Assembly: GCA_020627685.1 (NCBI GenBank) | Contig: JAHDGK010000023.1 | Span: 20,758-73,889 of the forward strand | Source: Granulosicoccus sp. | GTDB lineage: Bacteria > Pseudomonadota > Gammaproteobacteria > Granulosicoccales > Granulosicoccaceae | Reading direction: 5' to 3' | DNA: 53,132 bases | In this document: piece after piece, positions 11,430 to 26,600 of the stretch | Numbering within the stretch: the first letter of the stretch is position 1 | How the letters are laid out: every line of letters starts with the position of its first letter | Position numbers and translations under genes: made by a program | Notes under the pieces: generated by a model | The model's input: only the letters and a program-made list of their open reading frames with translations | Told to the model about the DNA's origin: nothing | The model's database searches: none

Positions 11430-11542
11430 GATCTCAACTATCCTTGGGGATTCTCTACGATTTTCTACGGCCCCAATGTAGCACTCAAGACGCACACATG
11501 GGACTCTTAGGCTTGCGGTTGCTCTCAGGGGTAAGGACTTAC

Positions 11543-12196
11543 ATGAATATTTCGGCGTGTATATTCGATATGGACGGCCTGTTAATCGATAGCGAAAGTA
11601 TCGCTCTCAGCGTATTTCAACAAACCTGCGATCACTACGGTATCGGGCATCAAAAACCACTGTATCAACAACTGTTGGGCACCAACCACGAAACAACCCG
11701 AACCATACTGAACAAGGAACTTCCTGCACGCATTAATGTTGAGGAATTTACAGAGTACTGGTCAGAGCACTATTCGGCCTTGACTAGCCAAGGCGTCCCT
11801 CTGATGAAGGGAGTCGACAACCTGCTTACGTATCTGGAAACCATGAAGATACCCAAAGCCGTCGCGACATCGACTCAAACGGAACGTGCCATCGGCAAGC
11901 TCGAACACTCAGGTATCGCGCACAGGTTCTCATTCATCATCGGCGGTGACCAAATAGTTCACGGCAAACCGGCTCCCGATATTTACCTTAAAGCCGCTGA
12001 CGCGCTTAGCATCGAACCATCACATTGTCTGGGCTTGGAAGATTCACCTAACGGCGTAAAAGCGGCGCTGAGTGCCGGCCTGAACGTAATACAGATCCCT
12101 GACACACTCCAACCCAATGAAGCGCTACTGTCGCTTGGGCATACGGTTCTGGACGATCTGGACGCGGTCGTTAGCCTACTCCAATCCCATCAGTAA
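11543..12196 (+). CDS. HAD-superfamily phosphatase (beta-PGM/YniC-like)
   Basis: About 217 residues. The nucleophile motif D9-M-D11-G is in IFDMDGLLIDSE, followed by the helical C1 cap typical of subfamily IA, the threonine/serine motif ATSTQ, the lysine in HGKPAPDIY and the acidic motif LGLEDSPNGVKAA. It likely hydrolyses a small phosphorylated sugar or polyol. ATG at 11543 is chosen because AAGGA is 6 bases ahead; a longer frame from 11444 adds 33 unrelated residues. It precedes the sugar-acid genes by about 100 bases. Confidence 0.88.
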   Translation: MNISACIFDMDGLLIDSESIALSVFQQTCDHYGIGHQKPLYQQLLGTNHETTRTILNKELPARINVEEFTEYWSEHYSALTSQGVPLMKGVDNLLTYLETMKIPKAVATSTQTERAIGKLEHSGIAHRFSFIIGGDQIVHGKPAPDIYLKAADALSIEPSHCLGLEDSPNGVKAALSAGLNVIQIPDTLQPNEALLSLGHTVLDDLDAVVSLLQSHQ

Positions 12197-12297
12197 CACC
12201 GCAAATACGCCTCTTAAGTGAATACAAGGATGGCTAGAAATAGTATCTTTGTAGGCAGGATTTTGGATAAGACACTCTACCGAGCAAGTGACACCCT

Positions 12298-13284
12298 ATG
12301 AAAATTCTAATTATCGGTGCCGGGGGCATGATTGGCGCTAAATTAGCCCAAAGACTATCCACACAGACGCGCATAAACAGCCAAGATCTCGACTCCTTAA
12401 AGCTTGTAGATGTTGTTCAACCCAAATCGCCAGCAACACCAAGCGATAGCGGCTTAACAATAGATTGTGAAATTGCCGACCTTACGCGCAAAGGTGTAGC
12501 TGAATCATTAGTATCAGATCAACCGGCCATTATTTTTCACTTGGCGGCAGTCGTATCCGGTGAAGCCGAAGCTGACTTTGATAAGGGCTACCTGATCAAC
12601 CTGGATGGCACTCGCTTTTTACTCGAAGCGATACGTGCTGAGCACGAGAAAAATGGCTACACGCCGAAAGTAATTTTCGCCTCGTCAATCGCCGTCTACG
12701 GTGCTCCTTTTCCGGAGACCATCCCGGATGAATTTCATTTAACGCCACAAACCAGCTACGGCACACAAAAGGCTATTTGTGAATTGCTGATAGCCGATTA
12801 CAACCGTCGGGGAATTCTTCAGGGAATGGGACTCAGACTTCCAACTATCTGTATTCGACCCGGCCTGCCTAACAAAGCAGCCTCAGGATTCTTTTCAAAT
12901 ATTTTAAGAGAGCCGCTGAACGGGAAGCCTGCCACTCTCCCGGTTAGTGACAACGTTAAGCATTGGTTTGCCAGCCCCCGTACCGCAATCAACTTTCTGA
13001 TGCATGCAACCACGCTGTCCAAAGATGCAATCGGACTGCGCTGCAATTTAAACCTTCCCGGACTATGCGCCTCCGTTGCCGAACAAATTACTGCACTGGA
13101 AAAAGCGGCAGGATCCGAGGCACTTAAACTCATTCATCGAGAGGATGACGAAACTATCCAGTCAATCGTATCGGGTTGGCCAGAAGCATTTGATGCGCAA
13201 AGAGCATTGCAACTTGGCTTCCAGAGTGAAACCTCTTTTGATGAAATTATCAAAGTGTATCTTGAAGACGAACTACAGCCGTGA
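12298..13284 (+). CDS. denD: NAD-dependent D-erythronate dehydrogenase-like SDR
   Basis: 328-residue extended short-chain dehydrogenase. The nucleotide loop G7-A-G-G-M-I-G13 and catalytic S130, Y154, K158 (SYGTQKA) are intact. The strings HLAAVVSGEAEADFD, LINLDGTR, SSIAVYG and LRLPTICIRPGLPN are characteristic of the DenD family, which oxidises D-erythronate (or a related four-carbon acid) at C2. Its stop overlaps the GTG start of the enolase-superfamily gene by 4 bases, so they are one unit. The kinase/isomerase genes (denA/denK type) of the full erythronate pathway are not in the window, so the true substrate may differ. Confidence 0.8.
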   Translation: MKILIIGAGGMIGAKLAQRLSTQTRINSQDLDSLKLVDVVQPKSPATPSDSGLTIDCEIADLTRKGVAESLVSDQPAIIFHLAAVVSGEAEADFDKGYLINLDGTRFLLEAIRAEHEKNGYTPKVIFASSIAVYGAPFPETIPDEFHLTPQTSYGTQKAICELLIADYNRRGILQGMGLRLPTICIRPGLPNKAASGFFSNILREPLNGKPATLPVSDNVKHWFASPRTAINFLMHATTLSKDAIGLRCNLNLPGLCASVAEQITALEKAAGSEALKLIHREDDETIQSIVSGWPEAFDAQRALQLGFQSETSFDEIIKVYLEDELQP

Positions 13285-14381
13285 AAATCAGTAGCGTTGA
13301 AACCTTTAGTAATGAGTTTGTTTGTTTCGTTAAAGTCACCACTAATGACGGTGCAATAGGTTGGGGACAGGTTGCCCCGTACCACGCAGATATTACCGCT
13401 CAGATCGTACATAGACAGGTTGCCGTCCATGCGTTAAATCAAAATGCACTCGAAATCACACACGTCATAAATCACGTACTGGAGCGCGAACACAAGTTTC
13501 CAGGTTCTCATCTCTACCGGGCTTTAGGTGGTGTAGAAACAGCCCTGTGGGACCTTCGAGGTAGGCTCGAGGGTAAAGCAGTCTGCGAATTAATCGGCGG
13601 TACTCCGGGCACTATCCGCGCATACGGCTCATCGATGAAACGCGACATCACCCCGCAAGATGAAGCCAACAGACTCGAAAAATTAAAATCATCATTAGGT
13701 TTCGACGCATTTAAATTTCGCGTCGGATCAGAGTGTGGACATGATCAGGACGAATGGCCCGGACGCACCGAAGAAATTGTACCCACCGTTAGAAAAGCAC
13801 TAGGCAGTGAAACAGATCTACTGGTTGATGCCAATTCATGTTACTCACCCACTCGTGCCATAGAGGTCGGGCAACTGCTGCAAAGCGAAGGTGTCATCCA
13901 CTTTGAAGAACCCTGCCCTTACTGGGAATTTGAGCAAACTCGCCAAGTGACTGATGCCTTGGATATTGACGTCACCGGAGGTGAGCAAGATTGCGAACTG
14001 GCCACTTGGCAACGCATGGTCGATGAGAAAATCGTTGACATAATTCAACCGGATATTTGCTACCTGGGTGGCATGACGCGAACGCTCAAGGTTGCAAAAA
14101 TGGGTGAAATTGCCGGCTTGCCATGTACACCACACTGCGCTAATTTATCGATGGTTACGCTTTTCACAATGCACCTGTTGCGAGCCATTCCCAACGCTGG
14201 TAAATACTTAGAATTCTCCATTGAAGGTTCTGATTATTACCCTTGGCAAGAAAACCTATTCGTAGATTTCCCCTTTACGATCGAACATGGCAAAGCCCGT
14301 GTGACGGATAAACCAGGTTGGGGAGCAGAGCCAAACCCTACTTGGTTAGCCCACTCGACATATGCGCGAAGCAGTGTGTAA
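13281..14381 (+). CDS. Mandelate racemase/muconate lactonizing enzyme-family protein
   Basis: 366 residues, enolase superfamily. Metal ligands D183 (VDAN), E209 (FEEP) and E235 (GGEQ), general base K145 of a K-x-R motif (KFRV), and H285 in TPHCAN place it in the mandelate-racemase subgroup, probably a sugar-acid dehydratase or epimerase. The GTG start overlaps the stop of denD (GTGA), indicating translational coupling. Together with DenD and perhaps the upstream HAD phosphatase it suggests catabolism of an aldonate or tetronate. The substrate cannot be read from sequence. Confidence 0.85.
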   Translation: MKISSVETFSNEFVCFVKVTTNDGAIGWGQVAPYHADITAQIVHRQVAVHALNQNALEITHVINHVLEREHKFPGSHLYRALGGVETALWDLRGRLEGKAVCELIGGTPGTIRAYGSSMKRDITPQDEANRLEKLKSSLGFDAFKFRVGSECGHDQDEWPGRTEEIVPTVRKALGSETDLLVDANSCYSPTRAIEVGQLLQSEGVIHFEEPCPYWEFEQTRQVTDALDIDVTGGEQDCELATWQRMVDEKIVDIIQPDICYLGGMTRTLKVAKMGEIAGLPCTPHCANLSMVTLFTMHLLRAIPNAGKYLEFSIEGSDYYPWQENLFVDFPFTIEHGKARVTDKPGWGAEPNPTWLAHSTYARSSV

Positions 14382-14469: not shown

Positions 14470-15645
14470 TTGTGGCGCCGATACGAACCTACAAACCAGC
14501 ACGATTATTGGGTACACCCGACCATGCTCGCCGTCTTTCTTATTTCGGTTCTTTTCATTCTCTATACCTACGCGCTTTTTCCAATCTACTTACACGTAAA
14601 GGCAAAGCGTAAGGACCCTGTCGAGTGTGCTCAACCGGAAGAGTGGCCGACCGTGAGCGTCCTTATCGCCGCTCATAATGAGGCGAATAATCTGCCGGCA
14701 AAACTAAAAACCCTGTCAGAACTAGATTACCCGAAAGAGCTAATCGAATGGATCATCGTCTCTGACGGCTCAACCGATGGAAGCGTCGAGCTTTTAGAAA
14801 AAGAATTTGCTGATCACCCTAACCGCCATGTTCATCATTTAGAAACCGCACTAGGCAAGTGTGGCGCCTTGAATGCAGGTGTATTGAAGGCAAGCGGCGA
14901 TATTATTGTCTTCATGGATACACGCCAAAGGATATCGAGCAACACGATAAAAAAACTTGTGCCATTCCTTGCGAACCCTGAAATAGGAGCGGTCAGTGGT
15001 GAGCTTGTACTTGCAAACGATGACACGCTTGAAGCTGAAAACTTCGGCCTGTACTGGCGTTATGAAAAATGGATACGCGACAATGAAAGTCGACTCTTTT
15101 CAACAACGGGTGCAACCGGTGCTTTGTATGCCATCCGCCGGGAAGATTTTATACCTAACAAACTGGGAACTATACTCGACGACTTTGAAACACCGTTAAG
15201 CCTGCTAAAGCAAGGCAAACGAACGTTATTCGTTCAGGGAGCTTATGCCTATGACAAGGTGTCCAGCGATCTAAAACATGAGTTTGCTCGAAAGGTCAGA
15301 ACAAACTCTGGCAGCTGGCAGACTTTTCACAACAATCCCTGGCTGTTCAGCCCGTCGAAGAATCCCGTATGGTGGCAGTTCCTATCACACCGTTTATTCC
15401 GGCAATTAGTGCCCTTCGCAATGATTTTGGCTTTTTTATCTGCAGCCATAGGTCAAGGGCCGTTTCTTAATACCATGCTGGTGCTACAGATTGTGTTCTA
15501 CGCTGTGGCCGCTGCTAGCTACTTCCAACTTCCCGGCACAGGCAACAAGTTGTTCAATATAATCGTCGTGTTTTTACAATTGAACATGGCCGCTTTTATT
15601 GCGTGCATAAAATTTATTTTTGTTCGCAAAGAGATTAAGTGGTAA
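14470..15645 (+). CDS. Membrane glycosyltransferase family 2
   Basis: 391 residues. An N-terminal membrane segment (20-42) is followed by a GT-A domain: SVLIAAHNEANN, SDGSTDGS (98-105), FMDTRQR (148-154) with the metal-binding aspartate, an ED/DD-type acceptor motif DDFETP and a QxxRW-like RKVRTNSGSW. Three membrane segments close the chain. This matches processive synthases of hyaluronan/chitin type in layout. The start is a TTG preceded by an excellent GGGAGG (6-7 bases upstream), which outweighs a later ATG at 14524. First gene of the unknown cluster. Confidence 0.88.
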   Translation: MWRRYEPTNQHDYWVHPTMLAVFLISVLFILYTYALFPIYLHVKAKRKDPVECAQPEEWPTVSVLIAAHNEANNLPAKLKTLSELDYPKELIEWIIVSDGSTDGSVELLEKEFADHPNRHVHHLETALGKCGALNAGVLKASGDIIVFMDTRQRISSNTIKKLVPFLANPEIGAVSGELVLANDDTLEAENFGLYWRYEKWIRDNESRLFSTTGATGALYAIRREDFIPNKLGTILDDFETPLSLLKQGKRTLFVQGAYAYDKVSSDLKHEFARKVRTNSGSWQTFHNNPWLFSPSKNPVWWQFLSHRLFRQLVPFAMILAFLSAAIGQGPFLNTMLVLQIVFYAVAAASYFQLPGTGNKLFNIIVVFLQLNMAAFIACIKFIFVRKEIKW

Positions 15646-15680
15646 GTACAGCGCCGTCGGCTTAATCGTTCTACAGACTG

Positions 15681-15686
15681 TATACT
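15681..15686 (+). promoter_or_regulatory. Possible -10 element before the dehydrogenase gene
   Basis: TATACT differs from the sigma-70 consensus by one base and lies 34 bases before the TTG of the dehydrogenase gene, in a 75-base gap. No good -35 element is seen at 16-18 bases upstream, so this is a weak proposal; the gene could also be read through from the glycosyltransferase. Confidence 0.25.
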
Positions 15687-15720
15687 GTGAACACGAACCC
15701 AACAATTTTTATGACACATC

Positions 15721-16695
15721 TTGTCGACCACCACTTCAGCATTGTGGATAACAGGTTGTAGACAATCTGAAATCCGCCAATCTCCTCTCGATGACGACGG
15801 CTGTCATGGCTTGCTGGTCAAAACTCTGTACTCAGGAATTAGCAGAGGTACGGAGTCATTGGTTTTTAACGCAAATGTCCCTCCCAGCGAACACGAACGA
15901 ATGCGCGCCCCTTTTCAGGAAGGCTCGTTCCCATACCCGGTAAAATACGGGTACACAAACGTTGGGCTCGTCACCCACGGACCCGATAATTGGATTGGGA
16001 AAACTGTTTTTAGTTTGTTTCCACACCAAACGGTTTTTGCCATTCCCGTCAGTGCCGTAACGGCTGTACCACAGGATGTACCCGCCAGTCGCGCGATACT
16101 AGCCGCCAACATGGAAACAGCTGTTAACACCTTGTGGGATGCTCAACCCTCTATCGGCGACAAAATTTCAGTAATAGGCGCTGGCGTCGTCGGAAGTCTT
16201 ATTGCATGGCTTGCGGCGCAAATACCCGGAACTGACGTAGAACTCGTTGATGTTAACCATCGACGCGAAACCTTAGCCGCACATTTGAACGTCACTTTCA
16301 AAGCACCGGAAGACGCATCACCAGAACGCGATTTAATCATCAACGCATCAGCCAATGAAGCAGGACTTAACACAGCGCTGCGTTGCGCGGGCTTTGAAGC
16401 GACAATCGTGGAAGTAAGTTGGTACGGCAACACCCCGGTAACCATTCCATTGGGAGAAGCGTTTCATTCCCGTCGATTGAACATACGATCTTCGCAGGTA
16501 GGACACATCGCAAACCCACAGCGCTCTCGATGGGACTATAAGCGGCGACTGGAACTCGCCTTAAGCCTTCTCAAGCACAATTGTCTGGATCATCTTGTAA
16601 GCGGTGAAAGTAAGTTTGAGGACCTTCCCAGTACATTACTAACAATCACCGATAAAAACGCAGACGTGCTCTGCCATCGAATCGTTTACGACTAA
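15721..16695 (+). CDS. Zinc-free MDR oxidoreductase, BchC-like
   Basis: 324 residues, medium-chain dehydrogenase fold with NAD(P) loop VIGAGVVGS (151-159) followed by acidic DVNHRR, hinting at NAD preference. The catalytic zinc ligands of alcohol dehydrogenases are replaced: the usual CGICGSD segment reads YSGISRGTE (37-45), and the GHE motif reads KYGYTNVG. The R-G-T-E motif is shared with BchC-type dehydrogenases. A TTG at 15721 is the start used; no clear ribosome site is visible, so the start is provisional. It is followed by the PTPS-like gene after 22 bases. In the absence of photosynthesis genes, a role in bacteriochlorophyll is unlikely. Confidence 0.78.
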   Translation: MSTTTSALWITGCRQSEIRQSPLDDDGCHGLLVKTLYSGISRGTESLVFNANVPPSEHERMRAPFQEGSFPYPVKYGYTNVGLVTHGPDNWIGKTVFSLFPHQTVFAIPVSAVTAVPQDVPASRAILAANMETAVNTLWDAQPSIGDKISVIGAGVVGSLIAWLAAQIPGTDVELVDVNHRRETLAAHLNVTFKAPEDASPERDLIINASANEAGLNTALRCAGFEATIVEVSWYGNTPVTIPLGEAFHSRRLNIRSSQVGHIANPQRSRWDYKRRLELALSLLKHNCLDHLVSGESKFEDLPSTLLTITDKNADVLCHRIVYD

Positions 16696-16717
16696 ACCAT
16701 TATTAGGAGAATTCACC

Positions 16718-17125
16718 GTGTTCAGTTTGAATGTTCGTGAGCATTTCATGATCGCGCATAGTTTCAAAGGCGAAATTTTCGGGCCAGCGCGTTCGCTACA
16801 TGGAGCAACTTATATTGTTGATCTGGAAATGCGCAGACCCTCACTTGACGATGATGGCCTGGTGGTCGATATCGGTTTGGCCAGTCAATCTCTGGCCGCC
16901 GTACTTTCAGAGTTCAACTTTAAAAACCTCGATGACATCCCTGAGTTCTCAGGCAACAACACCACCACAGAATTCATGGCGTCAGTGATCTTTCATCGAA
17001 TTGCGGCGCTTATTGAACGCGGTGAACTCGGCCCCAGCGCACACGGCCTTACTCAAATGAAGGTAACCCTTCATGAGTCTCATGTAGCGTGGGCAGCCTT
17101 TGAGGGAGATCTACCCGCAACATGA
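16718..17125 (+). CDS. 6-pyruvoyl-tetrahydropterin synthase/QueD-fold protein without catalytic Cys
   Basis: 135 residues covering the whole PTPS/QueD fold. H14 (AHSF) and H28 (LHG) match two zinc ligands and E120 (LHES) matches the pterin-anchoring glutamate; NTTTEF matches the usual PTSEN stretch. However the catalytic cysteine position is Ala (A24) and the second His of the HGH zinc motif is Ala (A30, LHGATY). Normal PTPS or 6-carboxytetrahydropterin synthase chemistry is therefore unlikely, though binding of a pterin-like molecule remains plausible. GTG start with AGGAG 8 bases ahead. It overlaps the GT4 gene by 4 bases (ATGA). Confidence 0.82.
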   Translation: MFSLNVREHFMIAHSFKGEIFGPARSLHGATYIVDLEMRRPSLDDDGLVVDIGLASQSLAAVLSEFNFKNLDDIPEFSGNNTTTEFMASVIFHRIAALIERGELGPSAHGLTQMKVTLHESHVAWAAFEGDLPAT

Positions 17126-18174
17126 GTCAAACCAAAGTTTTCTTCGTTTTCCCAGGAGATATCAATACGCGAACGGGTGGTTACCTTTATGACAAGCTCA
17201 TCATAGAGCAGCTAAAAAAAGCAGGATGGGATATCTCTCTCATCTCCCTCGAAGGGGACTACCCGTTCCCGGATGAAGCGATGCGACAATCCGCTGCTCG
17301 TCAGTTAGCTGCAATCCCGAACGACTCCTTGGTAATTGCTGATGGGTTAGCATTTAGTGTCTTACCAGAACTGTTTCAGGAGCATGAGTCAAGACTACGA
17401 ACAATTGCATTGATTCATCACCCGCTTGCTCTAGAAACCGGGTTGTCCGACGAACAAAGCGCAGCACTAAAAATGTCCGAGACTGAAGCTCTTCGATACG
17501 CTGCGCATATTATTACAACCAGCGAGCACACTGCAGAAACACTGGCCGACTTCAATGTATCCAATGACAGAATTACCGTTGTATTTCCGGGAACCGCACA
17601 AGCAGCAGTGGCAGTGGGTAGCCAATCTGATATTTTCAATTTGATCTGTGTCGCGACTATCAACGAGCGCAAGGGTCACGCTGTTTTGGTTAAAGCGCTT
17701 AAACACATCGAGCACCTACCGTGGCAACTGAGCTGTGCAGGAAGTTGCGACCGAGATCCGGACACGTATAAAGACCTTGTCCAACTCACTGAGAAACTCG
17801 GATTAAACGACCGCATTCGGTATTGCGGCGAGCTTAACAACGAGCAGCTTGAAATAGAATATCAGCGCGCTGACCTATTCGTACTCGCGTCATACTACGA
17901 AGGTTACGGCATGGTACTGGACGAAGCCATCGCCCGAGCGCTACCTATTGTTGCCACCAGCGGTGGTGCTATAGCCGATACAGTCCCACGCGATGCGGGC
18001 ATTCTAACAACGCCCGGTGACAGCGAGGAGCTTGCCAACGCTTTACAGCAATTCATGGAAAAAGAACCCATCCGCGAATCATTGAGAGCCGGCGCTGCAA
18101 ATGCGCGAAAAGATCTTCGCTCTTGGAGCGATGCAGCGCTTCAATTCGACTCAGTACTCAAACAGTATGGCTGA
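17122..18174 (+). CDS. Glycosyltransferase family 4 (GT-B)
   Basis: 350 residues. The GT-B fold is shown by an N-terminal acceptor domain with GGYLYD (19-24), K184 in NERKG contacting the donor phosphate, and the E260-x7-E268 pair in EGYGMVLDEA followed by LPIVATSGGAI. It transfers a sugar from a nucleotide donor with retention of configuration; acceptor unknown. No membrane segment, so probably cytoplasmic or peripheral. Start overlaps the stop of the PTPS-like gene and its stop overlaps the methyltransferase start by 8 bases, so the four genes from 15721 form one tightly coupled unit. Confidence 0.9.
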   Translation: MSQTKVFFVFPGDINTRTGGYLYDKLIIEQLKKAGWDISLISLEGDYPFPDEAMRQSAARQLAAIPNDSLVIADGLAFSVLPELFQEHESRLRTIALIHHPLALETGLSDEQSAALKMSETEALRYAAHIITTSEHTAETLADFNVSNDRITVVFPGTAQAAVAVGSQSDIFNLICVATINERKGHAVLVKALKHIEHLPWQLSCAGSCDRDPDTYKDLVQLTEKLGLNDRIRYCGELNNEQLEIEYQRADLFVLASYYEGYGMVLDEAIARALPIVATSGGAIADTVPRDAGILTTPGDSEELANALQQFMEKEPIRESLRAGAANARKDLRSWSDAALQFDSVLKQYG

Positions 18175-19069
18175 AAAAAAACAGAGTACCGAACCAGCGG
18201 AAGGCTTTAGCCCCGATTGGCTTCGCTTACGAGAACCTGCAGATCACCAAGCACGCAGTGCATTGCTGACAGAGAAACTCGTGCTCTGGCGCGAGCGCTT
18301 TTCTGATTTCGGCGTGGTGGATCTCGGTTCTGGAACCGCTTCAAATTTTCGCTACCTGTGCCCCAAGCTGGGTATGAATCAAACATGGACACTCCTGGAC
18401 AATGACATCGGGCTTTTGTCTTGCATTGCAGAGCGTCTAGCGGAATGGGCTGTTGAAACTAATAGTCAGTTTGATCGTATCTCGCCCAACTCAGCAACAA
18501 TAAAGCACGCTAATTTCAGTGCACACCTAACCTGGCAATCATGTGATCTTGCAAAAGAACTCAATACAATTGATGTTGAGAACACGCATTTAATGACAGG
18601 CTCTGCGCTATTGGATCTAACGTCCGCCGCCTGGATGAGTCGACTTGCACACATTATCAATGCACAACAGTGTGCTTCTCTGTTCGTCTTGAGCTATAAC
18701 GGAAAACTACATTGGCAACCCGAGCTTCAATTCGATAAACAGATAACCGAACTACTCAATGCTCATCAGCTCACTGACAAAGGCTTCGGAAATGCACTAG
18801 GACCAAGCGCCTACGAGTATTTGATGAGTGAACTGACGAGTCATGCAATAGAGTCTGATCCAACAGACTGGATTCTCGATCAGGATTCACACGCTATACA
18901 AGAAGTATTGATCAGTGATTGGGCAGCAGCGGCAGCCGAGCAAAACCCCTTGAGGTCTAACGACATAAAGGAATGGTCACAACAACGGACCCACTACTTA
19001 GAGAAAGAACAATCAACGCTACGTGTAGGTCATGTAGATACTTTGAGCCTACCCGCGGATAACCTTTGA
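18167..19069 (+). CDS. Class I SAM-dependent methyltransferase
   Basis: 300 residues from the ATG at 18167, which overlaps the glycosyltransferase stop; an upstream extension to 18101 is unlikely. The SAM-binding motif I is VVDLGSGTASNFRYL, motif II is the acidic TLLDND and a later SALLDLTSAAW corresponds to motif IV. The target is unknown, but the placement after a PTPS-like protein and a glycosyltransferase suggests methylation of the same small molecule. The gene ends 1 base from the stop of the convergent RibD-like gene. Confidence 0.85.
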   Translation: MAEKKQSTEPAEGFSPDWLRLREPADHQARSALLTEKLVLWRERFSDFGVVDLGSGTASNFRYLCPKLGMNQTWTLLDNDIGLLSCIAERLAEWAVETNSQFDRISPNSATIKHANFSAHLTWQSCDLAKELNTIDVENTHLMTGSALLDLTSAAWMSRLAHIINAQQCASLFVLSYNGKLHWQPELQFDKQITELLNAHQLTDKGFGNALGPSAYEYLMSELTSHAIESDPTDWILDQDSHAIQEVLISDWAAAAAEQNPLRSNDIKEWSQQRTHYLEKEQSTLRVGHVDTLSLPADNL

Positions 19070-19070
19070 C

Positions 19071-20081
19071 TTAGAACAGTCTCTCTATAGCAGGTAGATC
19101 GTCCAAAGAGGCATCAAAGGATTTCCTTGACGCTATCCCTGACTCCGATGCATCAACGTCTCTTAAATCAAAGTTCCACAGCACATCCGCCCCCATACGG
19201 TACAAGGAATACGGAGGCCTCAGAGCTTCATTCATGGACATGACCGTAGGAAAGCGCACCGACGACCGTCCGGTACCGACAAATACAGGGGCAGCCGCTA
19301 GTTGAAAATAATCGAGACAGTTTTCTGTCAACATTCCAGACACGGTTAAACCGCCACCTTCCACAAAAATTCTACTGGCGCCCTTCTCTGCCAATGCTGA
19401 TAGAACATCACGCATTTGCATGCGCCCGTTCTTCAAAGGAAGGCAGATACGCGTGATATTTTCGTCAACCGAATCGCCCTGCTCCGCGTCGCTGCCTTGG
19501 ATTACCCACGTAGGTGCAGACTTATCCCGAAGCATTCCCGCATCCTCTGGCATGCGTGAAGAAGGATCCAGCACAACCCTAACCGGGTGTTCGCCGACAA
19601 CATCACGCGTTGTCAACTGAGGGTTATCCGCAACCACCGTTTCTACACCGACGATGACAGCGTGTGCCAATGCCCGCATGCAATGTAAGTGCTTTCGATT
19701 TTCTGGCCCGGTGACAAAAAAAGCATCACCCGTGTGCGTGGCTATCTGCGCATCCAAGCTCTGACCAATATGGCCGATTACCGTCGAATTATTCTTACCC
19801 GGGTTCAAGAACGGCAGGTAGAGATCCAACAGGGCTTGGGCATCGGAAGGCAGAGAAGTGCAGTCGCTCCAAACTCGCTCGTTATCAATTCGCAGCAGAC
19901 AGGCAGAATCGGTAATGTCACAAACCGCGACCTGTCCCTCGACCTCTTGACCGTGGGAGAGCCCGCAAGGAGATACCTTTTGAGTAGAATCGACGATATC
20001 CCGGGCAGCTAATAGTAACGACCAGGCTTCGTTGACCGTTAGTCCTCTTGATTGGGCAGTGGTTTGAGATTCTGATTCCAC
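19071..20081 (-). CDS. RibD C-terminal (DHFR-like) reductase domain protein
   Basis: 336 residues. Residues 100-320 match the RibD reductase domain, which in riboflavin synthesis reduces the ribose of the pyrimidine intermediate with NADPH: VIGHIGQSLDAQIAT, ENRKHLHCMRALAHAVIVGVETVVADNP, RVVLDPSSRMP and IFVEGGGLTVSG are clear. The first 100 residues are not a deaminase (no zinc motif H-A-E/PCxxxC) and are unrecognised. It is thus a stand-alone reductase, not a second ribD. GTG start at 20081. It is convergent with the methyltransferase and divergent from the CDP-alcohol gene across 110 bases, where a shared promoter should lie. Confidence 0.88.
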   Translation of the reverse strand: MESESQTTAQSRGLTVNEAWSLLLAARDIVDSTQKVSPCGLSHGQEVEGQVAVCDITDSACLLRIDNERVWSDCTSLPSDAQALLDLYLPFLNPGKNNSTVIGHIGQSLDAQIATHTGDAFFVTGPENRKHLHCMRALAHAVIVGVETVVADNPQLTTRDVVGEHPVRVVLDPSSRMPEDAGMLRDKSAPTWVIQGSDAEQGDSVDENITRICLPLKNGRMQMRDVLSALAEKGASRIFVEGGGLTVSGMLTENCLDYFQLAAAPVFVGTGRSSVRFPTVMSMNEALRPPYSLYRMGADVLWNFDLRDVDASESGIASRKSFDASLDDLPAIERLF

Positions 20082-20191
20082 AACTCAGGTAATTTAGTTC
20101 CAACAAAGAATGTTTACACAACAACAATAAACGAATTAGCGCCATAAAAGCACTATTCGAATTTCGCGCTGCTTCGGCTCAGGAATAGTCC

Positions 20192-20977
20192 GTGACAAAA
20201 TCCACTGATCTAGTACAAGAACAACTCAGCCCCTCGGATTATTCCCAATTACTCAAGGCGACTTATAAAACTCTGACCATAGTCACGGTCTGTGGCTTCG
20301 CACTTAGCAATATTATTTACGTGTACTTAGGGCTCGGTAGATCTTTTCCACTACTGGTGGGAGGGTGTTGGATAATTGCCGTTCTACTTATTTTACGTGG
20401 ACTGCCGGATCACAGACATTCTAAGTTCGGTACAGCGAACGCTGTGACATCGTTCAGAGCTGCCGGGGCTATTATTCTCACCGGCATACTTCCCATGTCT
20501 CGCACTATCAGCGAAACAAACACAACTCTATGGATTGTTTCCCTGTGCATCGCCGGACTTATTTGCCTTGATGGCGTCGACGGTTTTTTTGCCAGACGGG
20601 AAAAATTGAGCTCGAACTTCGGTGCCCGGTTTGATATGGAGACTGATGCTTTTCTGGCATTGATGATCACCCTACTAATCTGGGAAAGTGAACGAGCTGG
20701 AATCTGGGTGCTTGGCCTAGGGTTAATGCGCTATGCATTCGTATTCTGGAGCTGGTTCTCGCAGCCACTCAAAGCAACGCTCTTTCCATCAATGAGGCGC
20801 AAAGTCGTCTGTGTGATTCAACTGGTTGCTCTATGCCTGATGATCTCCCCACTACTGCACGGGAACGCTATCTTACTGATAGGTGTTAGCGCGCTTGTGT
20901 GCCTGAGCGCATCATTTCTCATTGATATCGTCTGGTTATACCGGCAGGCATCAATCGATTCAGCGGCGCGCAGCTAA
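20192..20977 (+). CDS. CDP-alcohol phosphatidyltransferase family protein
   Basis: 261 residues, six membrane segments. The full family motif D-G-x2-A-R-x8-G-x3-D-x3-D is present with D127, D130, G131, A134-R135, G144, D148 and D152, so the enzyme should be active. It moves a phospho-alcohol or phosphatidyl group between CDP-linked donor and a hydroxyl acceptor to make a phosphodiester lipid. Substrates are unknown; the usual pgsA, pssA and cls contexts are absent. GTG start with AGGA 8 bases upstream. Its stop overlaps the convergent flippase-like gene by 4 bases. Confidence 0.87.
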   Translation: MTKSTDLVQEQLSPSDYSQLLKATYKTLTIVTVCGFALSNIIYVYLGLGRSFPLLVGGCWIIAVLLILRGLPDHRHSKFGTANAVTSFRAAGAIILTGILPMSRTISETNTTLWIVSLCIAGLICLDGVDGFFARREKLSSNFGARFDMETDAFLALMITLLIWESERAGIWVLGLGLMRYAFVFWSWFSQPLKATLFPSMRRKVVCVIQLVALCLMISPLLHGNAILLIGVSALVCLSASFLIDIVWLYRQASIDSAARS

Positions 20978-21894
20978 GCTTGCTTTTTCATTAACAGGTA
21001 GAGAAGCGCACCAGGTATCACCGACACCATAGAGACAAGACCATACACAATACTTGACGCAATGCCTGCTTCTGCCGTTAAGCCGACCACAGGCCAAAGC
21101 GAGGCAGCTGCTAGTTCCCGAATCCCCCACCCTCCGACTGAGAGTGGTATGACCATACTCAACAACACCACCGGGACAACTGTGAACAAGGCAGCCAACG
21201 GTAAAGGTTCAGCAATGGACAGAGCGCAAATGGCAAAAACAACGACGTAACTTGCCACTATGGCAACGCTTAAAACGGACTGTAATAGCCACTGCCTGTC
21301 GACAAGCCAAACACGCTTAAGCGCGGGGCTTAGTTCTAGAATAAATCGCCTAACCGATAAAGAGAGCCGACCGAACAACGCGACTATCGCGGCAAGCATC
21401 ACGCACAACAGGAGGAAAATACCCAGCACTTGCGGCAAATGTTTAGGAACTGCTTGTTCGAACACCAGCGGCCATAGCAGCCAACCCACAAGAGTAACGA
21501 CAAAGAGGACCAATTGACCGGACATACGCTCTATGGTCACACTCATCATTGAAGATTGCCAACTACCACCTACGCGATTTCTATACACGCGAGCGGCATC
21601 ACCACCGACACCTCCGGGCAAGCTGAGATTGGCCAGGGTTGCTAGATAATATTCACTGATGGCACGCTGTAACCCCAATCTTTGATCGAGTCGATTGGCC
21701 GTGATGCACCACCGGATGGCAGATAACAACACCTGAACCTGCACAACTATAAAGGCCAGAGCCAACCAGCGCGGGTCCGTGCCTTTAAGTATCTTCCACG
21801 TTTGCTGGATATCAACTAGCCAAACAATAAGAAATACAATTAGGATGACCAAAGACCACCGTAAGTATCTTGACTGAGTCAGCACATTGTTCAA
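20974..21894 (-). CDS. LPG synthase/AglD-type membrane protein (UPF0104)
   Basis: 306 residues, about eight membrane segments. The family hallmark SLPGGVGGDAARVYR (91-105) and the later PLSVGGWGIRE are present; these occur in MprF transmembrane domains and AglD/YbhN-type proteins that move or modify lipid headgroups. It lacks the soluble synthase domain of MprF, so a flippase-like role is more likely. The start is TTG at 21894 or GTG at 21885; neither has a good ribosome site. Its 5' end overlaps the divergent LtaS-like gene. Confidence 0.85.
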   Translation of the reverse strand: MNNVLTQSRYLRWSLVILIVFLIVWLVDIQQTWKILKGTDPRWLALAFIVVQVQVLLSAIRWCITANRLDQRLGLQRAISEYYLATLANLSLPGGVGGDAARVYRNRVGGSWQSSMMSVTIERMSGQLVLFVVTLVGWLLWPLVFEQAVPKHLPQVLGIFLLLCVMLAAIVALFGRLSLSVRRFILELSPALKRVWLVDRQWLLQSVLSVAIVASYVVVFAICALSIAEPLPLAALFTVVPVVLLSMVIPLSVGGWGIRELAAASLWPVVGLTAEAGIASSIVYGLVSMVSVIPGALLYLLMKKQA

Positions 21895-23479
21895 CAGGGA
21901 CTACCCAATTTCATCGACTCATGTTCTCACAATACTGTGTGTGGTACTGGTGAGTGTTGCGGTTCCAAACCATCCATCCTATCTGAGTATTACGACACCC
22001 TGGCGGCTTCCTATTGAGTTCCCACTCATTGTGGTGACCACACTATTTTGGACAAACACCAAGCAAGCTGCGTTACGGTGGCTGATATCGATTGGAATCA
22101 CAAGCCTTATAGTGCTTCGTCTTCTCGATTTCGGTTTTTACCTCGCATTCGATAGGGCGTTTAACTTCCTACGGGACGGGCACTTAATCGTGTCAGCCAT
22201 AAACCTACTGCAAACAGGCTTTGGTCAATTGACCGCGATGCTCGTCATTATCATCGTCATCGTGCTTACCATAGCTGTCGCATGGATACTTTCCTATTGC
22301 TTGCATGAATTGAGCATGCTTGGGCGCCTCAAACCAAAGGCGCGTTCTACTATCACAGTGGCCATGCTGCTACTGACACTCGCCACAATAGTCGCTGAGC
22401 AATTACTCCCAGAACGGATAGTGCTTCATTCGGCGGTCTTAGAACAACTCAACAGTAAAGTCGAAGCGTCTAAAATTTCACAACAGCGAAGTGCGCGTGT
22501 GCATCAAGCTGTCACACACACGAGTCTTGCTAGCAAAACAGAACCTGAATTTAGCGCCCTCAGGAACCATGATGTTGTGATCATCTTCGTCGAATCCTAC
22601 GGACGAAGCTTCCTATCCAACTCAGCATTCAGCTCCGTTGCATCGGATACCCTGCAAACCTTTGCCGATACGCTTAAAAATTCCCAGGCACACATAAAAA
22701 GTTCCTGGCTCAAAGCACCGGTAAGCGGCGGTCAGAGCTGGTTGTCACATGCAACGTTACACGCAGGGCTAACCATCGAAAAACAAGCGGACTACGAACT
22801 ACTGGTAGCGTCCAAACATTTGTCTCTGGCAACAATTTTCGAACGATCAGGCTGGTCGAGTATGGGCATGGTTCCCGGCATTCAATTTCATTGGCCAGAG
22901 GGTGAATGGTACGGTTTCGACCGACTCTATACTCACGATGATTTTAACTATGGAGGTAAGCGGTTTGGTTACATCACAATGCCAGATCAATTCACCCTTG
23001 CGCATCTCAACGAGCAAGTACAACCTTCTGACGTTTCGGTAATGGCGACTATCGCACTGTTGAGCTCTCACGCACCCTGGAATGTATTACCAAAGAAGCT
23101 ACCGTGGTCGCAAATCGAAGACGGTAGTGTTTACAACGGTACAAATCGCGAAGAGCGAGGCACTTCTATTTTTAACCTCAGCGGCTTGAAACACTACTAC
23201 GCACGATCTATTCAATACACACTGCAGGTGGTTGGTGAATTCATAGATAACTATGAGCGTGATGCCTTGTTTATTGTTTTAGGGGACCATCAACCTGCGG
23301 CTATCATTGGTGGGTTGGGGAATTCTATGGACGTGCCCATACACTTGATATCTAAGAACCCGCAGTTGATAACACCACTACCCGAGACGATATGGTCAGC
23401 AGGTGTAGTACCCGCTGAGAGAATTCCGCCAACGGATATGGCGGAATTTAGCACTATGTTGATATCCCTTTACCGATAG
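21887..23479 (+). CDS. LtaS/EptA-like alkaline-phosphatase-superfamily membrane enzyme
   Basis: 530 residues. Membrane segments lie near 12-28, 43-58, 66-88, 115-138 and 155-172, followed by a periplasmic sulfatase-fold domain. Metal-binding motifs are IIFVESYGR (233-240, E236), a GGQSWLSHATL stretch (281-291) that should carry the nucleophile serine or threonine, SSHAPW (393-398) and GDHQP (466-470). This is the layout of lipoteichoic-acid synthase and phosphoethanolamine transferases, which move phospho-alcohol groups from a phospholipid to an envelope acceptor. The TTG start at 21887 is needed to keep the first membrane segment. Last gene of the cluster; it ends 6 bases from yceI. Confidence 0.85.
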   Translation: MFNRDYPISSTHVLTILCVVLVSVAVPNHPSYLSITTPWRLPIEFPLIVVTTLFWTNTKQAALRWLISIGITSLIVLRLLDFGFYLAFDRAFNFLRDGHLIVSAINLLQTGFGQLTAMLVIIIVIVLTIAVAWILSYCLHELSMLGRLKPKARSTITVAMLLLTLATIVAEQLLPERIVLHSAVLEQLNSKVEASKISQQRSARVHQAVTHTSLASKTEPEFSALRNHDVVIIFVESYGRSFLSNSAFSSVASDTLQTFADTLKNSQAHIKSSWLKAPVSGGQSWLSHATLHAGLTIEKQADYELLVASKHLSLATIFERSGWSSMGMVPGIQFHWPEGEWYGFDRLYTHDDFNYGGKRFGYITMPDQFTLAHLNEQVQPSDVSVMATIALLSSHAPWNVLPKKLPWSQIEDGSVYNGTNREERGTSIFNLSGLKHYYARSIQYTLQVVGEFIDNYERDALFIVLGDHQPAAIIGGLGNSMDVPIHLISKNPQLITPLPETIWSAGVVPAERIPPTDMAEFSTMLISLYR

Positions 23480-23485
23480 TTAAAA

Positions 23486-24070
23486 CTACTTTGCTTTATT
23501 GGCTTCAGTCTCAATAATTAGATCAATCTTATCTCCGACCAATCCATTAGCCACGCCGTAATCCATACCGTAGTCACTTCGTAGCAAAGATCCACGAGCC
23601 GATATGCCTAAGGTCAGCTTTTTATGCCCGAACGGGTAATTATCAGACTTGTTCAAGGTGGCCTGTAAAGTCAAAGGTTGAGTTTCGCCCAACAATGTCA
23701 GTTGCCCGGTTATGTCGACCATACCCTTATCATTCAGCGTTGCACTTGAAGCTGTGAACACCATTTCAGGATATTTTTTTACATCCAGAAAGTCACTTTT
23801 CCTCAGATGTTTATCGCGCGCCTTATTGTCTGACTGTACAGATTTTGTCTCAACCGTTATGGAGACATCACTGACCACACCGGATTCTGCGTCGTAGTTA
23901 AACGATCCAGACACGCTGGAAAAATACCCTAGGGTTTTTGCAAACCCCACGTGATCCACTAAAAAAGCGACGGTGGTATGCGATTTATCAAGTGTGAAAC
24001 GCTCACTGGCGGCATACACGGGCGAGGCCAGCATTAAGACACAAACCAATGCAATTAATTTTTTTAACAT
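23486..24070 (-). CDS. YceI-family periplasmic lipid-binding protein
   Basis: 194 residues with a Sec signal peptide (1-20, cleavage after ASPVYA). The mature domain is a lipocalin-like YceI barrel, with FTLDKSHTTVAFLVDHVGFA, KHLRKSDFLDVKKYPEMVF and LTLLGETQPLTL. Family members bind polyisoprenoids or other amphiphiles in the periplasm. A 126-base gap separates it from pdxJ upstream on the same strand; the gap holds a nested inverted repeat (24130-24170). Confidence 0.93.
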   Translation of the reverse strand: MLKKLIALVCVLMLASPVYAASERFTLDKSHTTVAFLVDHVGFAKTLGYFSSVSGSFNYDAESGVVSDVSITVETKSVQSDNKARDKHLRKSDFLDVKKYPEMVFTASSATLNDKGMVDITGQLTLLGETQPLTLQATLNKSDNYPFGHKKLTLGISARGSLLRSDYGMDYGVANGLVGDKIDLIIETEANKAK

Positions 24071-24196: not shown

Positions 24197-24937
24197 CTAG
24201 GACCCGCAGGCGGCCAGAAAACGCTTCACGGTCGCTGCCATGCCATATTCCACAGCATCTGCAGTCAAGCCATGCCCGATGGAGACCTCTGCTAATTCAG
24301 GTATACGCTCGATCAGTGGAGGCAAATTGGCTACCGTTAGGTCATGACCTGCGTTTACTGCCATACCCATGGCCAAGGCCGCATCAGCAGTGGCACCCAA
24401 TAATTCCACTTCTTCGCGCATGGCGGTCGGGTTGTCGTAGGTACCACCGTATGGACCTGTGTATAGCTCAATACGATCGCAGCCCGTCTCACTCGCCCAT
24501 TTGATTTGTTCAGCATCTGCATCAGCGAACAGGGAAACTCTCATACCGGCTTGTTTCAGGCGATCGACAACCGGAGCCAGCATATTGTGATGAGAACGAA
24601 AATCCCAACCATGATCAGATGTCGCCTGCGCCGGATCGTCCGGTACCAACGTGACCTGCTCAGGTCTGTTTTTTTCGACCAAAGCCAGAAAATCTTCCGT
24701 GGGATAGCCCTCGACATTGAACTCGCAATTCGGGAACTCCTCGTCGATCAAGGCACGCAGCTCGGCAACATCGGTAAAGCGGGTGTGTCGCTGATCAGGA
24801 CGAGGGTGCACGGTTAGACCGTGCGCCCCGTTGCTCAGCGCTATTCGTCCAATTCCTGTCACGCTCGGCCACGGCAGGTCACGCCGGTTTCGCAGCTGAG
24901 CTATTGCATTGAGATTGACAGAAAGTTGGGTGGCCAT
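24197..24937 (-). CDS. pdxJ: Pyridoxine 5'-phosphate synthase
   Basis: 246 residues, TIM barrel that condenses 3-amino-2-oxopropyl phosphate with deoxyxylulose 5-phosphate to pyridoxine 5'-phosphate, the last ring-closing step of DXP-dependent vitamin B6 synthesis. Signature strings are [59 protein letters not shown] and the terminal [11 protein letters not shown]. It starts 5 bases after the end of soeC, so it appears to be read as the fourth gene of the sulfite dehydrogenase operon rather than with recO/acpS as is common in gammaproteobacteria. Confidence 0.96.
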
Positions 24938-24942
24938 TTTTC

Positions 24943-25875
24943 TTAGGTTCGTTGGAATCCGTGATACAGATTAACAACATGTCGCGCTTCCGCAAAGAAC
25001 AACCAGCGCTCAACAAAAACGCCGGCATAAGCACTCAGTGCAGCCAGCAGCAACGTTGAGCTGCCTACTTCACCAAAAACTCCACTGATGAGTAGCAATG
25101 GAAGCAGCGCCATAAGAATCATGCTGATGGTTCGTAGCCAGATCAACTTAACTTTATCTACCTGATATCCGAACTCTTTATTGTGGAATGTATCGCTGCT
25201 GTTCCCCACGTCTAGAAGACGAACCGTGGCGCGTGTAAAACCAAGAGCCGTGTTTATAGTAGGCCCGGCAGGCTGTCCTATCCAATAAAAATAAACAATC
25301 TTTGCCAGAGCAGCCAACACAACCACACCCAGAGCCACACTCATCAGTGTCGCTGTGGATAGCCCCTGAGAAGCCAGCATAAAGCCAAGAATCAATGCAC
25401 CCAACAGTAGGCCCAGTAGAACGAAATTCACCGGAGTTAGTGCTGTGTGCCACTGACGGATGGTTTTCAAAGACGCGTAAATCATGCCCGTACAAATCAA
25501 TATAACGATGCATAAAAACGCGGTGAGTAACCCGAGAAAGTTTGTGGTTGTCGTGTTCCCCATAAAGAAATCACAGGCAAGCCAAATGAGACAAACCGGG
25601 TAGAACAAAACAGCGAATACTGCTTCACGGGACAACCAAGACGTACGGAAACGTACGAATGATCGCCAGGCGTTTTTGGGATTGGCTAGGTGAAAAGTGG
25701 AAGACAATAGACCAGCTGTCACCAATACCAGACCCACAACTCCCATGAGCGTAACCTGATCCGGGCTTGCGTCGGGCGTAAGGCCCGTTAATCGGCTGAT
25801 GCCTAACAGAAACAGCACACCATAGCCTGCTCCCGCAGTGACTGTAAAAAATATAACAGATAGAGCCGGATGCAT
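24943..25875 (-). CDS. soeC: Sulfite dehydrogenase-type membrane anchor (DmsC/SoeC family)
   Basis: 310 residues with about eight membrane segments, DmsC-like anchor that passes electrons between the Fe-S subunit and the quinone pool. Conserved strings include [27 protein letters not shown] near the N-terminal third. Its ATG shares one base with the TAA of soeB, indicating coupled translation. The specific name depends on the identity of the catalytic subunit; a general DmsC label is safe. Confidence 0.75.
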
Positions 25876-26600
25876 TAGCGTGCCCCCTTACCAAAATCAT
25901 TAAAAGCATCTTTCTGACGCTTCATCCACTTACCGATTAACGATTGACCTGATGCAGCTTCTTTCTTCTCAACCGTAGGCGCTTTAGGGCGCTGTCGAGG
26001 AGGTAGGTACTTGTTCACCGGGTTGTAGCCGACTTCCGGCATCATGGAGTATCCACTTCGCTCTCTAACCATCGTACTGACTTCAGAATTTGGATCGTCG
26101 AAATCACCGAAGAAGCGCGCATTTGTCGGGCAGGTCATAACGCAAGCAGGTTGTCTTTCTTCTTTGGGTAAAGCTTCGTCGTAAATTCGATCAACACACA
26201 GCGTGCACTTTTTCATGACACCGGCATCTTCGTCGAGTTCACGCGCACCGTAAGGACAAGCCCACGCACATAAATTACAACCCATGCACTTAGATTGATC
26301 GACCAGAACGATACCGTCCTCCTCTCGCTTATAGGAGGCACCGGTCGGACAAACTGTCACACACGCTGCGTCATCACAATGCATGCAAGACATTGGGGTA
26401 TTTACAGTTTTGTTGTTTGGATACTCATCCACTTCAAAGGAGCGAATACGATTGAACCAAACGCCCGAGGGATTTTCGCCATACGGGTCATAGTCGGTGA
26501 GCGGCCCCGTTGTGCCGGAAGTATTCCACTGCTTACAAGCCACTGCGCATGCATGACATCCAACGCAAGTATCAAGATCTATAACGAGTCCGAGTTTCAT
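25875..26600 (-). CDS. soeB: Four-cluster [4Fe-4S] electron-transfer subunit (DmsB/SoeB family)
   Basis: 241 residues with 16 cysteines in four groups: C12/C15/C18/C22, C72/C75/C80/C84, C105/C108/C111/C115 and C132/C135/C153/C157, which bind four [4Fe-4S] clusters. It wires the molybdenum subunit to the membrane anchor. A basic C-terminal tail of about 60 residues follows the last cluster. The start overlaps the stop of soeA by 4 bases. No signal sequence, so it sits on the cytoplasmic side. Confidence 0.82.
   Translation of the reverse strand: MKLGLVIDLDTCVGCHACAVACKQWNTSGTTGPLTDYDPYGENPSGVWFNRIRSFEVDEYPNNKTVNTPMSCMHCDDAACVTVCPTGASYKREEDGIVLVDQSKCMGCNLCAWACPYGARELDEDAGVMKKCTLCVDRIYDEALPKEERQPACVMTCPTNARFFGDFDDPNSEVSTMVRERSGYSMMPEVGYNPVNKYLPPRQRPKAPTVEKKEAASGQSLIGKWMKRQKDAFNDFGKGAR

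Follow-up and report, generated by a model that had tools for sequence, protein, structure and literature searches.

Gene content and layout of the cluster

We analyzed a stretch of 53,132 nucleotides from a Granulosicoccus sp. genome (assembly GCA_020627685.1, contig JAHDGK010000023.1; hereafter, the window), in which nine consecutive genes at positions 14470 to 23479 bring together a dehydrogenase, a protein of the PTPS fold, a RibD-type reductase, a methyltransferase and two glycosyltransferases with a CDP-alcohol phosphatidyltransferase and two membrane proteins. The core of this set recurs as a unit in bacteria and haloarchaea, and we tentatively read it as a dedicated cluster for a methylated and glycosylated pterin-like compound made from GTP. 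The genome measures 4.9 Mb, and the closest named relative of its dehydrogenase, at 67% identity, comes from an uncultured Granulosicoccus.

The first gene (14470..15645, plus strand) encodes a membrane GT2 glycosyltransferase (PF00535, 4.8e-24). It is followed by five core genes: a medium-chain dehydrogenase (ADH; 15721..16695, plus), predicted to be zinc-free and distantly matching TIGR01202 as well as sugar, polyol and threonine dehydrogenase models; a PTPS-fold protein of the PTPS-IV type with an FGPAR motif (16718..17125, plus; PF01242, 5.2e-24); a GT4 glycosyltransferase (17122..18174, plus; PF00534, 8e-30); an S-adenosylmethionine (SAM) methyltransferase (MT; 18101..19069, plus), assigned through relatives near the Pfam threshold and a predicted structure, whose translation may in fact begin at the ATG in position 18167; and a RibD C-terminal reductase without the deaminase domain (RibD_C; 19071..20081, minus; PF01872, 7.4e-37). 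The set continues with a CDP-alcohol phosphatidyltransferase (CDPAP; 20192..20977, plus; PF01066, 4.8e-12), a flippase-like membrane protein of the LPG_synthase_TM family (20974..21894, minus; PF03706, 1.2e-37) and an LtaS/EptA-like membrane protein with a probable alkaline-phosphatase-superfamily domain (21887..23479, plus; no Pfam match), beyond which lies a gene for a YceI lipocalin-like protein (23486..24070, minus; PF04264, 3.4e-39).

All nine reading frames are open as an earlier note, made from the DNA letters of this stretch, had described them, and its remark that most genes overlap or are separated by 0 to 22 bases holds at six of the eight junctions, the exceptions being 75 nt between GT2 and ADH and 110 nt between RibD_C and CDPAP. 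Seven genes lie on the plus strand; since RibD_C and the flippase gene lie on the minus strand, the nine-gene cluster is not one transcript. Across the whole window, Rfam searches at gathering scores gave no match, hence no FMN riboswitch; a promoter scan (8 sites against 11.5 expected) was uninformative, and terminator-like sites numbered 22 against 9.6 in shuffled sequences.

The family names proposed in the earlier note stood for GT2, PTPS, GT4, RibD_C, CDP-OH_P_transf and LPG_synthase_TM, all of which pass their Pfam cut-offs, and for MT, through its relatives and model; the LtaS/EptA-like assignment is weaker. The MT of the window has no Pfam match, and its relatives straddle the 27-bit cut-off of PF13649 (Streptomyces, 28.1 bits; Methylosinus, 22.1 bits, below it). 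Its predicted structure (pLDDT 91.5) matches generic SAM methyltransferases among the 50 Foldseek matches listed, with a best TMq of 0.53. The relative of the LtaS-like protein at locus L118 matches PF00884 (Sulfatase) at 4.6e-5, below the cut-off, and ESYG, GxSW and GDHQ stretches are conserved over 21 such proteins. The motif DxxDGxxAR...G..xD...D, which we take to be the catalytic motif of CDP-alcohol phosphatidyltransferases, is at least 93% conserved over 67 CDPAP proteins.

Recurrence of the gene set

A scan of genome contigs for ADH returned 390 relatives. The 80 best were fetched, and 15 more stretches from whole genomes brought the total to 95 loci besides the window. Neighbors were counted within 9 kb of ADH, and contig ends make all counts lower bounds. 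The loci, chosen via ADH, include eight from Chromohalobacter, ten from Marinobacter and two (L050 and L101) that share a genome.

The check suggested in the earlier note, whether the families recur together, gave a clear result: PTPS lies near ADH in 93 of the 95 loci, GT4 in 92, MT in 88 and RibD_C in 85, and the five core genes occur together in 78. The order ADH-PTPS-GT4-MT on one strand is kept in 87 loci, and GT4 and MT form a single open reading frame in 12, nine of them from Marinobacter. CDPAP accompanies ADH in 66 loci, the flippase-like gene in 42, GTP cyclohydrolase II (GCHII) in 34, YceI in 30 (in 27 of these no more than 500 nt from CDPAP), creatininase in 25 and the LtaS-like gene in 20. 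A homologue of the window's GT2 was found at a single other locus (L019), so that GT2, first taken for a pathway member, is probably a local addition outside the core. The nine genes thus mark a real set whose extent was drawn too narrowly, for it also takes in YceI and, in relatives, GCHII and creatininase.

In the commonest layout, YceI and CDPAP point leftward, ADH-PTPS-GT4-MT, with or without the flippase gene, rightward, RibD_C leftward, GCHII rightward and creatininase leftward. In another common layout, RibD_C precedes ADH on the same strand, the strand it shares with ADH in 22 of 85 loci. The window's own cluster has neither GCHII nor creatininase. GCHII stands between RibD_C and CDPAP in L099, from the same genus, and in Granulosicoccus L022, where the window has its 110 bases.

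For each family, pairwise distances correlate with those of ADH (r 0.64-0.91; 0.83 for CDPAP), four divergent loci being left out and part of the correlation being expected from shared ancestry alone. Creatininase occurs in 7 of 17 ADH-positive gammaproteobacterial genomes and in 33 of the 257 others (Fisher p 0.005, uncorrected for relatedness), a result that is no more than suggestive. The gene set is a travelling unit whose recurrence is far beyond chance. A chance neighborhood, for which the mixed strands alone would speak, is ruled out by this recurrence across phyla and both domains, and we give it practically no credence.

Genes just outside the unit rarely recur: HAD hydrolases in 2 of the 95 loci, a nitroreductase in 1 and generic epimerases in 6, while a mandelate-racemase-type gene and PdxJ occur in the window only (1 of 96 loci). 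Just upstream, positions 11444-14381 hold a possible sugar-acid module: genes for a HAD hydrolase, an NAD-dependent epimerase and, overlapping the epimerase gene by 4 nt, a mandelate-racemase-type enzyme. The HAD and epimerase genes are shared with L019. Downstream (24197-29551, minus strand), pdxJ adjoins a DmsABC-like molybdoenzyme operon. Eight more neighbor proteins scanned (EamA, PAD_porph, LuxR, ABC, GGDEF, cytochrome b561 and two without a match) mostly recur within one genus. Cytochrome b561 genes adjoin several clusters (L118:11528-12085, L147:11000-11539, L080:14194-14823), and the protein is a possible redox partner.

Active-site residues and structural predictions

ADH belongs to the medium-chain dehydrogenase/reductase (MDR) proteins, and its best curated model is TIGR01202, at 58.2 bits against a cut-off of 291.25; the label "BchC-like" of the earlier note therefore holds as a distant likeness and fails as an equivalog assignment. 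All 96 ADH sequences carry Ser41 and Tyr78 where a zinc-binding MDR aligned to the family (one sequence, from L146; hhalign probability 91) has Cys and His, and the structural zinc loop of that single protein is not present in ADH. This alignment bears out the proposal of a zinc-free dehydrogenase, an enzyme that lacks the zinc ligands. The AF2 model of ADH (pLDDT 92) is most similar in Foldseek to L-idonate 5-dehydrogenase (TMq 0.79), and the next matches include alcohol, threonine, xylitol and sorbitol dehydrogenases (0.75-0.79).

The PTPS proteins carry FGPA[QRK] in 91 of 94 sequences (FGPAQ in 86, FGPAR in 3, FGPAK in 2; none in 3), and the FGPAR of the window's protein is a PTPS-IV signature. 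Aligned with eight QueD-like paralogues from ADH-bearing genomes, the protein shows HGA instead of HGH, and the Cys, one Zn-binding His and the Asp-His pair are missing, which confirms the earlier description of a Cys-less PTPS. It reaches 44.5 of the 89.25 bits set for QueD (PTPS-I; TIGR03367). Among solved structures it aligns over residues 1-130 of 135 with PDB 3d7j (1.2e-48), SCO6650 of Streptomyces coelicolor, deposited as an uncharacterized protein; the second-best match, a putative PTPS, stands at 0.003. SCO6650 reportedly has no Zn, no catalytic triad and no PTPS activity, and is said to have a pterin-like pocket.

RibD_C matches PF01872 only (residues 100-275; 127.5 bits over a cut-off of 24.1), has no deaminase domain and scores 107.6 of the 156.35 bits set for bifunctional RibD (TIGR00326); its solved relatives are 2b3z and 6p8c. 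RibD_C makes a precursor common to riboflavin and coenzyme F420, which counts in favor of the idea that PTPS-IV serves F420 synthesis, as does a remark in PMC5041015, given there as unpublished, on an archaeal F420 role for PTPS-IV. RibD, glycosyltransferase and alcohol dehydrogenase were not found mentioned in that paper. Against it, the CofD family was found in one of the 16 ADH-bearing gammaproteobacterial genomes searched and is absent from the other 15 (the 17th, G145, being without an ADH match), and no radical-SAM FO synthase is among the recurring neighbor families identified, in a scan that covered a minority of the neighbors. We consider an F420 role very improbable, and rejected it for the bacterial clusters on the CofD result.

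In the GCHII proteins, conservation of the zinc Cys and of the Tyr in the active site is 95% or more across 34 sequences; of 37 sequences, 34 showed the zinc motif to a text pattern, which left the Tyr unreadable in six, where it had caught a wrong EGR.

Distribution and haloarchaeal loci

At a threshold of E 1e-8, 17 of 274 gammaproteobacterial genomes carry ADH, one of them by a weak match; at 1e-25, 27 of 398 Pseudomonadota genomes do. The window's own genome is counted in both. Cluster loci include Acidobacteriota and Gemmatimonadota bins, and ADH is carried on plasmids in Streptomyces, Microbacterium (a 59-kb mobilizable plasmid), Methylosinus trichosporium OB3b, rhizobia and haloarchaea. 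Carriers include G255, with a 1.0-Mb genome that is 96% complete, and G142 (1.1 Mb, 99%). Loci L108 and L109, from genomes of 1.0-1.1 Mb, sit on a long branch and preserve the series YceI-CDPAP-ADH-PTPS-GT4-MT-flippase-RibD_C, with the RibD_C of L109 seen in two pieces.

In a tree of 110 ADHs, sequences from seven haloarchaeal and four gammaproteobacterial loci form a second group of their own beside a large one, with 100% SH-aLRT support; the program flagged long branches, that of L110 in particular. Among the members inspected, this division is mirrored in the PTPS type: proteins of the second group of 11 have HSH (L112, L113 and Haloarcula L115) or HAH (L110), with Glu at the Cys position.

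In a reverse check starting from plasmid PTPS genes, ADH adjoins PTPS in 16 of 20 records. The remaining four are all from Streptomyces, one with an ADH-like match 39 kb off and three with none; the comparison drew on the 40 listed of 60 ADH plasmid records, among them all three from Streptomyces. On a Streptomyces anthocyanicus plasmid (L117:8001-8426), a lone PTPS-IV gene lies by a gene with a MEKHLA domain; the part of the plasmid that was fetched shows no ADH. A rhizobial plasmid (L121:3769-6999) encodes a 1,076-aa protein annotated as a glycosyltransferase, with a distant ADH-like match, next to UDP-galactopyranose mutase; this is perhaps a paralogous use in polysaccharide synthesis.

Seven haloarchaeal plasmid loci were fetched (L115, L116, L142-L145 and L149). 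ADH is joined by PTPS and MT in six of them (PTPS 6, MT 6), by CDPAP in four and clearly by GT4 in four. In Haloarcula L115, a gene for GTP cyclohydrolase III (PF05165, 6.6e-81) overlaps the start of ADH; the same annotation appears in L142, L143 and two more plasmid records, and the gene stands directly before ADH in three of the seven loci. GTP cyclohydrolase III is unrelated to GCHII and likewise opens GTP to a pyrimidine, and its presence near ADH is a replacement of GCHII by an unrelated enzyme of related chemistry. Standing where many bacteria have GCHII, it provides the best evidence that the pathway would start at GTP. At L116:6999-7868, Haloarcula marismortui has a sub-threshold Sulfatase match where L115 has cyclohydrolase III, an echo of the window's LtaS-like gene.

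A putative pathway and its alternatives

Starting from the gene families, their recurrence and the active-site residues lost or kept, we propose substrates and an order of steps for a dedicated cluster that, in our judgment almost as likely as not, builds a pterin-like (2-amino-4-oxo) compound from GTP, methylates and glycosylates it, and probably handles it at the membrane. A GTP cyclohydrolase, type II in bacteria and type III in some haloarchaea, would open GTP to a diaminopyrimidine ribotide, and the RibD_C reductase would turn its ribose into a ribityl chain. The set lacks a deaminase, so the 2-amino group would be retained, which makes a pterin-like product likelier than a flavin-like one. 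The zinc-free dehydrogenase would then oxidize the ribityl polyol chain, a step favored by its fold being nearest to polyol-type dehydrogenases; the PTPS-IV protein would bind or process the pyrimidine or pterin; and MT and GT4 would methylate and glycosylate the product. CDPAP, the flippase-like protein, YceI and the LtaS-like protein would most likely link this product to a lipid or carry it through the membrane. The glycosylated, methylated pterin- or flavin-like product of the earlier note thus fits the GTP cyclohydrolase, RibD_C and PTPS content, and is narrowed here to a pterin-like one; the tie to a membrane lipid that the note also proposed is conjectural.

A more specific version, chemically simple but in our view improbable, is a redox, FolE-independent route to pterins that would end in a pterin-headed lipid common to bacteria and haloarchaea. 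RibD_C would reduce C1' of the ribose and ADH would oxidize C2' to the ketone that GTP cyclohydrolase I makes internally; this ketone would close to a dihydroneopterin-type pterin, replacing the Amadori rearrangement, and the pterin would be methylated, glycosylated and, in many hosts, made a phospholipid headgroup by CDPAP. Loci without RibD_C speak against this route being universal.

Several observations weigh against a dedicated pterin cluster as proposed above. RibD_C was found in none of the seven haloarchaeal loci, nor in Streptomyces L114, so that the reduction step would be done from elsewhere or is not universal, and L143 has cyclohydrolase III and ADH only. The window's genome has its single GCHII gene on another contig and no creatininase that we could find, so neither is obligatory. 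Archaeal riboflavin synthesis uses an ArfB-type deformylase, and creatininase was considered for this role, which found no support: the proteins of L021, L114 and L116 score 25.8, 37.0 and 20.4 against the 180-bit ArfB cut-off (NF033501), and the partner GCHII keeps its ordinary Tyr. We know of no product, substrate or mutant for any of these clusters. The residues needed by known PTPS reactions are lost in the window's PTPS type, and CDPAP was not found near ADH in 29 of the 95 loci or in L148, so that lipid attachment may lie outside the core.

The loss of the Cys, one Zn-binding His and the Asp-His pair, together with the resemblance of ADH to polyol dehydrogenases, would also fit a non-pterin product, a ribityl-pyrimidine or other nucleoside-like sugar whose methylation and glycosylation involve no ring closure. 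L115, L110, L112 and L113, however, keep an HxH metal site and the Glu, closer to a working PTPS-fold enzyme, and we judge such a product improbable.

The CDPAP pattern bears on an alternative that we hold unlikely, albeit the least so of those considered: two modules placed side by side for the sake of regulation, a soluble pterin-glycoside pathway (ADH, PTPS, GT4, MT, RibD_C and GCHII) and a separate envelope-lipid module (CDPAP, LPG-type flippase, YceI and LtaS-like protein), the small molecule not being lipid-linked. Of the 66 loci with CDPAP, 63 have it on the strand opposite ADH; no CDPAP was found in 29 of the 95 loci, no flippase gene in 53 and no LtaS-like gene in 75, figures that contig ends inflate; and the 15 kb fetched for L148 hold ADH-PTPS-MT-RibD_C with no GT4, CDPAP or flippase gene, which counts against the joint pathway as well. 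A separate lipid module is at odds with the flippase gene, which in 41 of 42 loci follows MT and shares the strand of ADH, and with CDPAP itself, which recurs close to ADH in Pseudomonadota, Acidobacteriota, Gemmatimonadota, Actinomycetota and haloarchaea and whose distances track those of ADH.

Relation to known pathways

The early riboflavin pathway of archaea and fungi likewise has a GTP cyclohydrolase followed by a reductase that acts before the deaminase, and shares GCHII/III and RibD_C with the loci described here. Deaminase, DHBP synthase and lumazine synthase, in contrast, are not among the recurring families identified, and dehydrogenase, PTPS, MT and GT4 stand in their place. Cyanopterin and limipterin, like the proposed product, join a pterin to a sugar, with a methylated sugar also present in cyanopterin; they are made from FolE-derived pterins, with no RibA/RibD/MDR set or phosphatidyltransferase known to us. 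Lipid headgroup pathways of the PgsA/PimA type use a CDP-alcohol phosphatidyltransferase and then a GT4, as here, the headgroup in our case being a putative ribityl- or pterin-type alcohol and not glycerol or inositol phosphate.

Part of the association is already in print. Cluster 62 of PMC5445326 (2017), the PTPS-IV group of COG0720, comprises 561 sequences with preferentially FGPAQ and with PF00925 and PF01872 as neighbors, PF00925 being labelled FolE2 there and GTP cyclohydrolase II in Pfam. The loci described here share the FGPAQ/FGPAR motif and, taken across loci, both neighbors, the window itself having RibD_C only. The section on this cluster (section 19) names no further neighbor and no pathway, and our loci add more families. 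The claim that no described pathway has this set must be qualified accordingly: no paper describing the full gene set was found in the open-access literature, the PTPS-IV, GCHII and RibD_C association was printed in 2017, and the set is built from known kinds of enzyme.

The putative pathway is widespread, and its product is unassigned in the literature found, which leaves a definite hole in what is known of microbial cofactor or lipid chemistry. The pathway would assign a function to the PTPS-IV group, which that literature leaves open, and would bring a new pterin-forming reaction or a pteridine-bearing lipid within reach of a direct test.

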